DNA of 51,827 nucleotides, taken from Synechococcales cyanobacterium bin59.metabat.ball.084 (lineage in GTDB: Bacteria > Cyanobacteriota > Cyanobacteriia > Cyanobacteriales > Chamaesiphonaceae). A program made the position numbers and the translations under genes. Positions 37,138 through 41,721 of this stretch are shown here, in pieces. The notes beneath the pieces are model-generated. The model was not told the DNA's origin and did not search any database. It saw nothing but the letters and a program-made list of their open reading frames with translations. The stretch lies in contig JAAFHZ010000014.1 in the NCBI GenBank assembly GCA_013297675.1, positions 1-51,827 of the forward strand. Reading direction: 5' to 3'. How positions within the stretch are numbered: position 1 is the first letter of the stretch; each line of letters starts with the position of its first letter.

Positions 37138-37434
37138 TCAGTTGCGATATGGTTCAATACTAGCTTTAGAACAATCGAGTCTGTCTACATAGAGTAATGG
37201 TTTCGGCAATGACCCGTACTCCTTACGACCAATTTGCCAAGCAGCGCCTTTTCTTTTGACTGTGGGGATCGATCGCTCTCCAGAACCAATATTAATGAGG
37301 GAGAGGCAGGGTTTGAATTTCACAGTAAAAAGTAGAGGTCGGAGGAGCGGATAATATTGTTCATCGAATGGGCAATTGATGAATACATTCGATTCACAAT
37401 CCGCTCTCACTAACTCAATAGCCTCATCACTCAC
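37138..37434 (-). pseudogene. Remnant of a nucleotide-binding/TIR-like hypothetical protein
   Basis: The N-terminal VFINCPFDEQYYPLLRPLLFTV is a pattern I know from a widespread uncharacterised cyanobacterial family, in which it starts a longer Rossmann/TIR-like protein. After about 55 residues the sequence becomes atypical (SGERSIPTVKRKG, then unrelated LYVDRLDCSKAS), and the frame ends at 98 residues. I read it as a 5' fragment whose 3' part was replaced or lost. It lies at the island's left edge beside tpiA. Confidence 0.6.
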
Positions 37435-37534
37435 GTTTGGTCACTAGGTGGGAGGGGGTCGTTTCCATGGGAGTCCTTTCGCTGAATAGTCCCATCCTTT
37501 TTATGGATAACGAACTCAGAACCCTGGTTCTTGC

Positions 37535-37909
37535 TTACCTCCCGCCCCCAAGAAATTGTGTGAGTAACTGGGTACCAATGCCTTGACCACGATATTCAGG
37601 AAAAACTGCAATCCCTAATTCCGGTGTCTCATCATCGACATAGCCATAGCCTTTATTGTCTCCAGTGAGCAATCGCAACCAAACTGCACCGACAGGCTGC
37701 TCTGTCGGGAGATGAATGACCATAAACCCACAATCACCATTACGCCGCCAACCTTGAACATAACGGGCAAGTTCCGGCAAATGAACTACTTCGCGTGACA
37801 CGGCAGCTTGACCTTCAGGGATATATAAAGCCTGATACAGCATCTCCCAGAGAAACGGCTCATCCTCGTCTTTAAGTGCTTGAATAATCCAATCCATTGT
37901 TTTCAACAT
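37535..37909 (-). pseudogene. C-terminally truncated GNAT acetyltransferase
   Basis: GNAT fold through motif A: ELGIAVFPEYRGQGIGTQLLTQFL, the acetyl-CoA-binding R/Q-G-x-G-x loop. Full GNATs run about 40-50 residues further, to the motif B segment; here the frame ends after QFLGGGR at 124 residues. It is therefore probably inactive, or a recently shortened cassette gene. It starts 21 bases after the attC-like site at 37931-38014 in the same (minus) orientation, the usual geometry of a cassette gene. Confidence 0.65.
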
Positions 37910-37930
37910 GCATCAGATTGTTTAGAGGAA

Positions 37931-38014
37931 GGCTAACGTTGCTGTTCAGCGGCTGCAAGTGACCTTTACATCCACATCAACGGCTTGATTCAGTCCGCTG
38001 TAACAAAGTTGTGT
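37931..38014 (-). repeat. attC-like integron recombination site
   Basis: On the minus strand the 84-base site ends in GTTAGCC (R'-like) and contains L-type arms CAGCGGA and CCGCTGAA, which pair (CAGCGG/CCGCTG). It begins with ACACAAC (R''-like). This R''-L''-L'-R' layout with a short pairing arm on each side and an unpaired centre is that of integron attC sites. Genes on both sides are spaced as cassette genes would be. The R ends deviate from consensus by one or two bases. Confidence 0.6.
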
Positions 38015-38041
38015 TGTTCGCGCAGCACAACTTTGTTACAG
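37998..38041. repeat. 19-base inverted repeat overlapping the attC-like site
   Basis: Two 19-base arms (starting CTGTAACAAAGTTGTG), with one mismatch, flank a 6-base loop TTCGCG. The arms contain TAAC and GTTA, the same ends as attC sites, so it may be an attC-derived duplication. It lies just upstream of the phosphatase gene. Confidence 0.85.
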
Positions 38042-38126
38042 AATACTCGACTCTCATTTTGACACACTGGACTGATATGAAAACTTAAGAGTTAGAATTG
38101 ATCGTTAAATAGCTCGACAATACAGC

Positions 38127-38729
38127 ATGTACAAATTTTCTGCGGCTTCAGAAAATGAACTTATTGTATTTGGCTCTACCCGACCCGGATACACCAACAA
38201 ACAAGTCATTAAGTGGATCGAGTTCATGCAGAATCAAGGCGTTAAACATGTCTGTTGTTTATTGCCCAAAACTCAGCTATCTCACTATTCAGATTTGCTT
38301 AGCATTTATCGACAAGTCTTTGGATTCGATCAAGTTTGTTGGGCACCGATCGAGGATTTTAACTTTGTGGTACCCGAAATTCTTGTTCACCAGATTTTGC
38401 CTTTTTTAGCCATTGCCAACCAACAGAATGAAAAAGTGGTTGTTCATTGCTCCGGCGGAATTGGGCGCACAGGACATATTTTAGCAGCATGGCTCGTAGC
38501 TGGACGAGAATTCTCCAGCAAATCGGCGATCTCTGCCGTCAAGCAAACTGGGAGAAATCCTTACGAAGCTATAATTGTAGCCCCATTCAAAGGTCGAAAT
38601 CCTTGGAAAGTTGCTGCGGAACTCAATACCCTTCTGGATGAGTGTCATCGTTTCAGAAACAAGCTTATCCAGCTTGATACCGAGCACCAACCAATAAGCT
38701 TCAACCTACTGTTCCCACCGACCCACTAA
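38127..38729 (+). CDS. Dual-specificity/tyrosine protein phosphatase
   Basis: A cysteine-based phosphatase. The CX5R loop is HCSGGIGRTG (Cys108, Arg114), and a general-acid Asp is likely at Asp77 (PIEDFNF) in the WPD-like position. About 200 residues, with no signal peptide. It runs against the other island genes (plus strand) and lies between two attC-like sites, so in the cassette reading it is an inverted cassette gene. The substrate is unknown. Confidence 0.88.
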   Translation: MYKFSAASENELIVFGSTRPGYTNKQVIKWIEFMQNQGVKHVCCLLPKTQLSHYSDLLSIYRQVFGFDQVCWAPIEDFNFVVPEILVHQILPFLAIANQQNEKVVVHCSGGIGRTGHILAAWLVAGREFSSKSAISAVKQTGRNPYEAIIVAPFKGRNPWKVAAELNTLLDECHRFRNKLIQLDTEHQPISFNLLFPPTH

Positions 38730-38732
38730 GCA

Positions 38733-38814
38733 GCACAACGATTAAGTTGAGCAGTAGTCATGAACCCGATCGAAGCAAAAAACCTTTAATATCAACTCCA
38801 AAGACTTGTTAGAC
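38733..38814 (-). repeat. attC-like integron recombination site
   Basis: 82 bases on the minus strand. It starts GTCTAAC (a full match to R'' RYYYAAC) 9 bases after the ParE-like stop and ends GTTGTGC (R' with one deviation). Inner arms AGTTGA and TCAACT pair. Position, size and orientation match a cassette boundary. Confidence 0.62.
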
Positions 38815-38823
38815 TGCTGCCTA

Positions 38824-39117
38824 TTACTGTCGATCGACCCAATACTGCGGTTTGCGCTTATGGTGCGCCACGGCCAAAATACGAATCTGATCATCCAACA
38901 GACGGTACAGCAGAGAGTAGGGGAACTTGGGTAAAGTTAGGCGACGAATAGAGCCTCTCACTTTGGAACCGGCTTCGGGGTAGCGCACGAGAAAATTTAC
39001 TGCGTGTTCTACTTCGTCCAAGTACTCCAAACCAAGCCCAGATTCTTGTTCCTCATAGTAGGAAACGGCATCAAGCAGTTCTTTTTCTGCCAGCGGATGA
39101 AAGATGACACTTCTCAT
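38824..39117 (-). CDS. ParE/RelE-superfamily toxin
   Basis: A 97-residue toxin of the ParE/RelE fold: MRSVIFHPLAEKELLDAVSYYEEQ, LGLEYLDEVEHAVNFLVRYPEAG and LPKFPYSLLYRLLDDQIRILAVAHHKRKPQYW are the family's conserved blocks (the RxxxxxxFPYxxxY segment and the C-terminal H-x-R-x-P-x-Y/W). ParE members target gyrase, RelE members the ribosome; which applies is unknown. The ATG overlaps the antitoxin stop (ATGA), so translation is coupled. Confidence 0.9.
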   Translation of the reverse strand: MRSVIFHPLAEKELLDAVSYYEEQESGLGLEYLDEVEHAVNFLVRYPEAGSKVRGSIRRLTLPKFPYSLLYRLLDDQIRILAVAHHKRKPQYWVDRQ

Positions 39118-39344
39118 TGTAAGGATGTACGAACTCGCTGAAATACTTGTTCGGCAGGAATTCCAGTGGTTTCATCATTGTCCATTGCTCGATCACGCAT
39201 CTCAGCTTCTTCAACCCAAATTGAGGAAACCTCTTGATCGATTTCATTACTTTGCCCTAGTCGCTCCAACATTCGAGCTAATAGAGTTACCTGAGATTGC
39301 TTTGGAAGTAAAAGAACTTCGGCTTCAAGGTTTTCAAGTGTCAT
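39114..39344 (-). CDS. Antitoxin, putative addiction-module component family
   Basis: A 76-residue partner of the ParE-like toxin, matching small 'addiction module component' antitoxins: an N-terminal helix (EAEVLLLPKQSQVTLLARMLERL) and a central acidic WVEEAEMRDRAMD ending in GIPAEQVFQRVR, the family's V/IPxEExFxxxR-like ending. It precedes the toxin by a 4-base overlap and is likely the autorepressor/neutraliser. Confidence 0.85.
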   Translation of the reverse strand: MTLENLEAEVLLLPKQSQVTLLARMLERLGQSNEIDQEVSSIWVEEAEMRDRAMDNDETTGIPAEQVFQRVRTSLQ

Positions 39345-39377
39345 GGCTATTTGATGGTGAAGTACACCTATTATACT

Positions 39378-39880
39378 TCAGACTCCTGCATGAGATGTTT
39401 GGTCAATGCGTTTCAAATAGGGATATTCCATAAAGTAACGCTCTGGTTCTATGTGTACTACGACAAAGCCTAGTCTTTCGTAAAGGACTTTTGCTGGACT
39501 GGAAGTTAGGACTCGCAGACGCACTGGCTTGCAGTCTTGATGAGCCTCTTCAATAATGTCAAGTATGATCGCAGTTCCGATGCCTTGATTTTGGAATTCG
39601 GGGAGAATATAAAGATCTTCGACTTGAGTATGGGTAGCATGGCGCTCTACCGCGATAGCGCTATGCGCGCTCCGAAAGGAATCGCTCCCACTCGCCATTG
39701 ACCCACAAAAATACTCTGGAAAGCTTTTGAATTAAGACCATCTAAAAGCTGAGAACGAACGATCTCATCACTCCACTGTCCCCACGCGGCAACCACATAG
39801 TTTTCCATTGTGGATTTGCAAAGCTCGTATAAGAACTCAAAATCAGAAGGTGGCATGAGTTCTAGATTATAACTACACAT
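39378..39880 (-). pseudogene. GNAT acetyltransferase disrupted by a 26-base insertion
   Basis: Two fragments in different frames make one GNAT. The N-terminus (MCSYNLELMPPSDFEFLYELCKS to GQWRVGAI) is followed in the other frame by AIAVERHATHTQVEDLYILPEFQNQGIGTAIILDI (motif A), then SPAKVLYERLGF (motif B). Removing bases 39655-39680 restores a continuous reading ...VGAIAVERH... across the joint. The insertion shifts the frame by 26 (2 mod 3), so the gene is very probably inactive. It shares strand and direction with the ParE-type pair that follows, perhaps in one cassette. Confidence 0.85.
39655..39680. repeat. 26-base insertion inside a HIP1 octamer
   Basis: Deleting this stretch restores GCGATCGC (HIP1) and the GNAT frame together. 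It can be read as a 24-base GC-rich, partly palindromic element (AGCGCTATGCGCGC...) plus a duplicated AT dinucleotide. I see no second full copy in the window. Confidence 0.75.
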
Positions 39881-39955
39881 ATCGAATGGAAAACTTCAGT
39901 GTTTTTGCATTTTACTAGAGACAGGATACGATACATGTTCTCTTACTTACAGTCT

Positions 39956-40047
39956 CTCTAACGTCATGCGCTTCACCAGACGGCAGTAGAACTTGCAACA
40001 CAACTAATAGCGTATGCCGCCGTTCCGAGTGCAAGCGCTTGTTAGGC
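39956..40047 (-). repeat. attC-like integron recombination site
   Basis: 92 bases. On the minus strand it begins GCCTAAC (full R'' consensus), 7 bases after the stop of the frameshifted gene, and ends GTTAGAG (R' with one deviation). Internal arms include GCGCTT paired to AAGCGC and ACGGC paired to GCCGT, with unpaired bases on one side, as in the extrahelical bases of attC. This is the best of the three sites. Confidence 0.7.
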
Positions 40048-40054
40048 TTAGGTG

Positions 40055-40599
40055 TTAGCTATAAGAACTAGAAGCTTGTGTTTGAAAATAACCTTGAGGC
40101 GAATCATCAACAAAGACTTTACCACGACTATTACCCTGAAACACATGCTTCTCTCTATAGGGAGATTCCATGAACTCACCCCAACAACAAACAATTAATT
40201 CAGCTTGATTTGCCATGTCTACGACATCCAAGTTAAAGCGATTTCCTTGATTGTTCATCTCATCCTGAAAAGAAATGATCTGACTTCCATATTCTTGGCT
40301 TAGAGCGCTATCAGAATCCCTAAATTGTTCTAGATCTTTATATCCAATAGATTGCTCTATTAGCTTATCTAGAATATTTCTCAATGGATCATAGTGAACA
40401 AGTAAAACTGAAATAGATTCTTCTTCAGTTTTTTTTTCAACCAATCTACTGGAAATTCTTGTAACAAAGCAATATTAAATTGTGCAATAAAATGCTCTGA
40501 TTTATTATGATCGATTTGAGTGGTATTTGGAGCAACAGGATTCCATTGATTTGAAATATTTTTATCCTGCTGAGTAACATATTTAAATCGAAGCACCAT
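40055..40599 (-). pseudogene. Hypothetical cassette gene split by an A9 tract
   Basis: The ATG at 40599 has AGGAGG 4 bases before it, so translation starts. The frame reads to residue 72 and stops; from an A9 run (T9 at 40429-40437 on the plus strand), the other frame continues for about 125 residues (TEEESISVLLVHYDPLRN to SSSYS). Merged, this gives about 181 residues with no family I recognise. It is either a frameshift mutation or a slippage-expressed gene. An attC-like site follows after 7 bases. Confidence 0.6.
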
Positions 40600-40647
40600 T
40601 TAACCTCCTAGCATACGAAACTCAGTGCATAAGATTTCACTTATGCT

Positions 40648-40748
40648 GCCTAACTACTGGTTATGCTGACAAGTTCAGTCTAACATGCCGAATAGGGTAA
40701 TTAGATCGACAAACGTCGGCATATCCCCAGAAAATAGGGGTGTTATGC
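40648..40748 (-). repeat. Degenerate attC-like sites
   Basis: On the minus strand, GCATAAC...GTTAGAC (40678-40748, with an inner ATGCCGA / TCGGCAT stem) is followed by GCATAAC-CAGTA-GTTAGGC (40648-40666), two R''/R' pairs of which the second has only 5 bases between its halves, as after an internal deletion. They lie upstream of the split gene's start, where the previous cassette boundary would be. Weaker than the other sites. Confidence 0.4.
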
Positions 40749-40949
40749 AGAAAGCCATCGGCATAACATCCTAAGTAGGGTATTTAGGCGGACAATTATT
40801 CTATTGTACCAATATTTTAAAGAAGCTACGAAAGGATGCAGAAAATGTCATTCTAAAGTAGACTCTAACCTCACGTCAGGCTCAGAGGTCTTTTTGCGTC
40901 CGAATAGGGTAGATTTGGCATTTTACTTGCATCCACTCTCACAACTCAT

Positions 40950-41019
40950 AATCATTGGAACCTAAGCATTAACCGACGAATCCTTCAGCATCGCCAATAA
41001 CTCAGGATCTTTGTCGATC
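40950..41019 (-). repeat. 70-base duplicate of part of the XRE gene
   Basis: About 64 of 70 bases match 41611-41680 inside the XRE antitoxin gene, in the same orientation, offset 661 bases. The copy reads IDKDPELLAMLKDSSVNA and then a stop. It shows that a second, now decayed, HigA-like copy existed here. Confidence 0.85.
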
Positions 41020-41033
41020 ACTTACGGTGCAAA

Positions 41034-41418: not shown

Positions 41419-41721
41419 CTAAGCCACCTCTTTCGGCAACATCTTAATTTCCAACCTCTGATTCAAAGCCGAAGCAATCCGCGCCAGCATCGACAAAGAA
41501 TGCCCATCATAATCAGCATCCTCCAACCGAGCAATAACCGATTGAGTCGTCCCCACCAAATCTGCCAACTGCCGTTGAGTTAACCCAGCCTGCTTCCGAA
41601 CATCATAAATAATCATCGAAACCTGAGCATTAACCGACGAATCCTTCAGCATCATTAATAACTCAGGATCTTTGTCGATCGATCGGCGAATAATTTTTAG
41701 AGTATCACTAGTATTATTCAT
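41419..41721 (-). CDS. XRE/HigA-like antitoxin
   Basis: A 100-residue helix-turn-helix protein (KQAGLTQRQLADLVGTTQSVIARLEDADYDGHSLSMLARIASALNQRLEIKM), a Cro/C1 domain as in HigA antitoxins. I chose ATG 41721, preceded by GGAAGAAG; a longer in-frame start at 41841 would run through the decayed toxin. The gene is intact, but its partner is not (see 41716-41819). Confidence 0.85.
   Translation of the reverse strand: MNNTSDTLKIIRRSIDKDPELLMMLKDSSVNAQVSMIIYDVRKQAGLTQRQLADLVGTTQSVIARLEDADYDGHSLSMLARIASALNQRLEIKMLPKEVA

Follow-up and report, generated by a model that had tools for sequence, protein, structure and literature searches.

An intI-less cassette array headed by a putative attI site in a cyanobacterium: part of a probable dispersed multi-platform integron

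An integron typically has one attI site close to its integrase gene, and a cluster of attC sites lacking integron-integrase is termed a CALIN (IntegronFinder, PMC9024848). Outside class 1, attI sites are poorly described (PMC9024848); the class 1 site, attI1, is about 65 bp long and has two direct repeats upstream of the L and R boxes (PMC4792948). Both CALINs (PMC9024848) and cyanobacterial attC sites are already known, and the latter constitute a distinct structural class that has been modelled (PMC8352920). Here we analyzed a cassette array in 51,827 nucleotides of Synechococcales cyanobacterium bin59.metabat.ball.084 (contig JAAFHZ010000014.1, positions 1 to 51,827, labeled C46; the whole stretch is referred to as the window). 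The initial annotation, made from the sequence alone, had taken the array for a possible CALIN. In our interpretation, to which we assign a probability of roughly 0.82, the locus is an attI-headed integron platform without the integrase gene (intI), part of a dispersed multi-platform integron that was served by the integrase (IntI) in trans and is probably now frozen.

A survey of other cyanobacteria yielded 80 intI loci, and attC sites were gathered from the adjoining arrays. The attC covariance model, R1, was based on 62 attC sites of other cyanobacterial genomes, the genome of the window and its genus being excluded. Searched with filters off, the window gave three R1 matches exactly where the initial annotation had placed three attC sites, all on the minus strand as proposed, so that the covariance-model check suggested at the time bore out every one of them:

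37931..38019, minus strand: attC of cassette 3 (62.1 bits, E-value 2.7e-15)
38733..38814, minus strand: attC of cassette 2 (28.3 bits, E-value 1.5e-5)
39956..40047, minus strand: attC of cassette 1 (43.7 bits, E-value 5.6e-10)

The next-best match in the window reached only 16.5 bits (E-value 0.039). An earlier hidden Markov model of attC had matched positions 37932-38012 (E-value 8e-15) and 39957-40046 (E-value 1.9e-6). Covariation is strong in the attC alignment behind R1: over its 22-pair stem, 85.9% of cells are paired, compared with 68% after shuffling and 27-44% when slid, and the stem shows 256 double changes vs 93. As a control, R1 recognized the attC of the dfrA5 cassette from a class 1 integron (39.0 bits). 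The weakest of the three sites, the attC of cassette 2, is 83-85% identical to stronger attC sites of the same genome (47.1 bits on C146 and 43.9 bits on C100), and that of cassette 1 is 89% identical to an attC in G001, a genome of the same genus. The sites have the R''/R' and L''/L' inverted repeats of attC, with single columns 17 and 27 of the model unpaired on the L'' side. An Rfam scan of the window at gathering thresholds returned tRNA only and no attC match. A motif finder combining R boxes with the L helix recovered one of the three sites along with background matches, and it was replaced by the profile and covariance models. A perfect 16-bp inverted repeat (CTGTAACAAAGTTGTG / CACAACTTTGTTACAG, 37998-38041) overlaps the R'' side of the cassette 3 attC and may represent an inverted duplication in competition with folding of the site.

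Alternatively, the three sites might be hairpins or terminators between genes, and the gene mix a defence or toxin-antitoxin island. The genes are indeed dense and of accessory type, and simple folding of the sites is weak: as single-stranded DNA they give uninformative z-scores of -1.4 to -0.7 (minus strand), with energies differing little between strands. We assign the sites to attC because of the family model and its covariation, not because of folding energy. With family-model E-values of 1e-15 to 1e-5, the covariation, a recognized class 1 control and a terminator scan of the region that found nothing above chance and no terminator-like site, the hairpin explanation is contradicted by the covariance-model test and its probability is negligible.

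Directly upstream of intI, most cyanobacterial integrons contain palindromic repeats with a consensus of about ATTAGRCNGAAA..TTTCCGTMTAACATCCC and ~41 bp from start to start. Each 41-bp palindrome pairs two inverted R-box-like half-sites. The spacing of units is 39-43 bp in 115 of 143 neighbouring pairs, close to four DNA turns, and attI blocks typically comprise two to six or more units (80-270 bp overall). On the array side the repeat series terminates with the crossover core G|TTRRRY. When 22 blocks are oriented like their arrays, their ends align as TAAT..ANTWG|TTRRRY; three of them have no clean core. Our repeat-unit model, R2 (64 units from other cyanobacteria, with the same exclusions as R1), matched the window only at 40653-40774 (E-values 6e-6, 5.5e-4 and 2e-3), everything else having E-values above 4. 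Since this block stands at the head of the array, the array is attI-headed. Judged by similarity and position, the block is an attI site with the following layout:

40648..40796, minus strand: attI, 3-4 palindromic repeat units at a spacing of ~41 bp (R2 matches)
40654-40648, minus strand: attI core GTTAGGC at the array-side end of the block, crossover G|TT between 40654 and 40653
40800..41022, minus strand: attI upstream flank, common to a second intI-less attI copy on contig C146

Genomes with these repeats mostly have attC as well. In a set of 60 (own included), attC sites occur in 48 and attI repeats in 35, the latter in 34 of the 48 attC genomes vs 1 of the 12 without attC (Fisher p 1e-4). 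A tblastn search of the attI upstream flank with IntI detected no intI similarity. Three codons near 40838 (ATGCAGAAA) looked like a possible intI stub; this reading was rejected, as the C146 copy has ACG there. Just upstream of the flank, the 5' portion of an XRE-type antitoxin gene is present as a repeat (40948-41022 and 41609-41684), and it recurs at the outer end of the C146 attI flank; this repeat may mark how the attI module was duplicated. Another element, of ~110 bp with terminal inverted repeats (GGGTGCGTGTGACTTTCT..AGAAAGTCACACGCACCC; L156 616-722 and L157 3681-3790), is inserted within the C181 attI block and next to that of C118.

The window contains no intI gene, as the initial annotation had stated, and the recommended search of the whole genome (a draft of 220 contigs) revealed a single intI, on contig C103. 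It is a pseudogene, with an in-frame TAG and a frameshift, and has its own attI. The intI next to attI that marks a complete integron is thus absent from the window, and the genome has only this one broken gene. At the same time, R1 detected about 26 attC sites on ~16 contigs and R2 ten attI blocks (C46, C103, C110, C118, two on C146, C153, C164, C181 and C93). Except on C103, the only contig with intI, every attI block shares its contig with attC. Headed by an attI, the locus is an integron lacking intI rather than a bare attC cluster, and one of about ten platforms in its genome. Of the CALIN proposal, at least two attC sites in one orientation with no intI nearby still hold; the description was incomplete, as the attI block at ~40648-40796 had been missed. 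One cassette of ~1.2 kb recurs, at 82-90% identity, at no fewer than six loci of the genome (at least L156 1501-2722, C61, C58, C93, C146 and C126). Several copies have the same attC, and the gene resembles, by eye only, Rpn-type or transposase-like nucleases.

Comparison of platform copies showed where their similarity ends. Taken together with ~215 bp of the flank before it, the window attI matches the C146 copy at 94% identity over 369 bp (attI included), and the C153 and C181 platforms are 97.6% identical over 615 bp, with ~520 bp of flank beyond the attI repeats. In both pairs similarity stops at the crossover, and different cassettes follow from there on. More broadly, all 17 paralogous attI pairs of the own genome and the 3-contig genome G003 are 74-100% identical across the 35 bases that end with the G, and only 15-37% from +4 onward. 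The nearest attC points away from attI in 22 of 23 intI-less blocks (four genomes, hand count, p 6e-6). Cassette turnover is evident both from platform copies with different cassettes and from cassettes common to other genera. The attC and attI sites are identified by similarity, and their order and orientation are likewise shown.

These data bear on the view that the array is a plain CALIN, i.e. a decayed attC cluster left by ordinary integron degradation, next to which the repeat block is an unrelated intergenic palindrome. Decay as such is visible in the broken intI of the genome and in the broken frames of two cassette genes of the window. However, intact intI genes of other cyanobacteria are immediately preceded by this very repeat block; it ends in a crossover core, stands correctly oriented at the array head, and exists in copies whose similarity is lost at the crossover. 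We thus regard a plain CALIN as improbable.

Several relatives have more than one platform and an intact integrase. Calothrix NIES-3974 (complete chromosome) and Leptolyngbya PCC 7375 each have five attI loci and one intact intI. Within 12-13 kb, six of their eight extra loci have attC, all reading away from attI; of the remaining two, one has an intI fragment only and the other neither attC nor intI. Over 338 bp, an extra platform of Calothrix matches the intI-bearing one at 97.6% identity; it has kept 29 intI codons. Cyanosarcina (G052) has four paralogous platforms and one intact intI. The four are alike through attI and a first cassette without a gene, and part ways at the G|TT in the attC of that cassette; of intI, no more than a short 5' piece is left in the three extra ones. 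A short gene-less attC cassette comes first after attI in several Cyanosarcina platforms (L185, L175, L176 and L177), and in Leptolyngbya PCC 7375 (L206-L208) an attC close behind attI is 97-99% identical between platforms.

The relatives also help in judging whether the window could be an assembly artefact, joining unrelated pieces while the intI of the array lies on another contig. The draft has many contigs, and in G001 the TPI and PNPase flanks are on different contigs, with no attC or attI beside either. Nevertheless, the only intI of the genome has an attI of its own on C103, and multiple attI blocks also occur in the 3-contig G003 and on the complete Calothrix chromosome. An artefact is accordingly very improbable.

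A weightier alternative is that several complete integrons were acquired or duplicated, were filled in cis, and each later lost intI, so that the attI sites are relics and no action in trans took place. About a third of known intI genes are pseudogenes (PMC2426708), and many extra platforms hold a 5' intI stub (the first 16-96 codons in several; about 25-77 codons at L172, L177, L178, L175, L202 and L204); L204 retains the last 34 intI codons as well. As the remnants differ, the deletions that removed intI varied from platform to platform. On the other hand, the pairs C46/C146 and C153/C181, the only ones whose shared flank is entirely without intI, have different cassettes from the crossover, and Calothrix, Leptolyngbya and Cyanosarcina combine one intact intI with several near-identical platforms of differing contents. 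We therefore consider filling purely in cis rather unlikely.

Our preferred reading, an attI-headed platform served in trans, has its own difficulties. A clean G|TTR core is missing in two attI blocks of G001 and in one of the own genome, and a promoter scan of the region gave fewer promoter-like sites than chance. The 5' intI stubs imply that several extra platforms were once complete; in some pairs, the divergence at the crossover could date from before intI loss. Moreover, the exchange of cassettes is deduced from sequence comparison.

With these reservations, we propose that duplication spread attI platforms around the chromosome, with intI lost wholly or for the most part, and that the intI-less attI sites would have been loaded with cassettes, or had cassettes exchanged, by IntI made elsewhere in the genome. 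Insertion and exchange mediated by IntI at these platforms would account for the attI-cassette-attC order and for the limits that the crossover sets to divergence. Some of this exchange probably followed the loss of intI from a platform, because the shared flank of the two pairs has no intI. IntI action in trans is the best inference. Where one intact intI accompanies four to five attI platforms, as in the complete relatives, loading in trans could still take place; in the present strain the only intI is broken, so the platforms are probably frozen and the arrays fixed. The cassettes are assumed to be driven by a promoter in the attI region.

The remaining features of the array are as follows:

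39962..40653, minus strand: cassette 1, a function-unknown gene (40599-40055) and attC; boundaries inferred from the crossover rule
38739..39961, minus strand: cassette 2, GNAT (39880-39378), antitoxin (39344-39114), ParE toxin (39117-38824) and attC (Pfam)
37937..38738, minus strand: cassette 3, dual-specificity phosphatase gene (38127-38729, plus strand, i.e. the opposite one) and attC (Pfam DSPc, E-value 5e-11)
37138..37909, minus strand: array end, GNAT (37909-37535) and an ORF (37434-37138), without a further attC
37058-36330: TPI core gene, beyond the array end

The cassette-array interpretation of the initial annotation is supported, and Pfam confirmed cargo that it had called usual for cassettes: GNAT, dual-specificity phosphatase, ParE toxin with antitoxin and a second GNAT. 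The cassette 1 gene had no Pfam family match. The cargo types were right; individual gene calls had to be corrected. The cassette 1 gene (40055-40599) is split over two frames, broken near 40381-40444 by a run of nine T, the GNAT of cassette 2 (39378-39880) is likewise split over two frames, and the phosphatase runs opposite to the array direction. A 34-bp palindromic element (TACCGCGATAGCGCTATGCGCGCTCCGAAAGGA.., 39653-39686) lies inside this GNAT at its frame break, and two identical copies are present on contig C216 of the same genome (L167 5642-5675 and 8009-8042). Some cargo has close counterparts elsewhere. The toxin-antitoxin and attC of cassette 2 (38735-39382) are 87% identical to a stretch of an intI-bearing array in Chamaesiphon sp. 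GL140_3. The phosphatase DNA has counterparts in Cyanosarcina (L177; 87% identical and also reversed, in an attI-headed array that lacks intI) and in the Chamaesiphon-family genome G003 (L174; 75% identical).

The broader proposal, that cyanobacteria run distributed integrons in which one integrase serves several duplicated attI platforms with separate short arrays, the tandem palindrome is the attI recognition unit, and intI loss is the normal state rather than decay, stands in our estimate at even odds. With an attI family beyond class 1 now defined by sequence, cyanobacterial attI platforms become open to computational detection, and genomes with several attI platforms per integrase make IntI action in trans at orphan attI sites directly testable. 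The results also suggest that some CALINs are loadable platforms, and they would extend the integron model beyond the single array to a network of them. In the open-access literature, subscription papers and preprints being outside our scope, we found no description of a tandem-palindrome attI, an orphan attI or several attI platforms per integrase.

How, then, does the locus compare with described systems? The published attC taxon model covers attC, and the accessible part of that source does not treat attI sites and platform number (PMC8352920). With CALINs the array has in common three attC sites in the same orientation and no intI in the neighbourhood; it differs in having a recognizable attI with a crossover core and in belonging to a genome with about ten platforms of this kind. 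Sedentary chromosomal integrons (Vibrio, Xanthomonas) are similar in attI, attC cassettes, toxin-antitoxin and acetyltransferase cargo and frequent intI decay (PMC12444791, PMC2426708 and, in part, general knowledge), whereas the present genome has several short, scattered arrays that each include attI, with intI in no more than one of them. Finally, attI1 resembles the present site in a G|TT core preceded by additional repeats, but the cyanobacterial units are palindromic, 41 bp (about four helical turns) apart, and typically number two to six or more.
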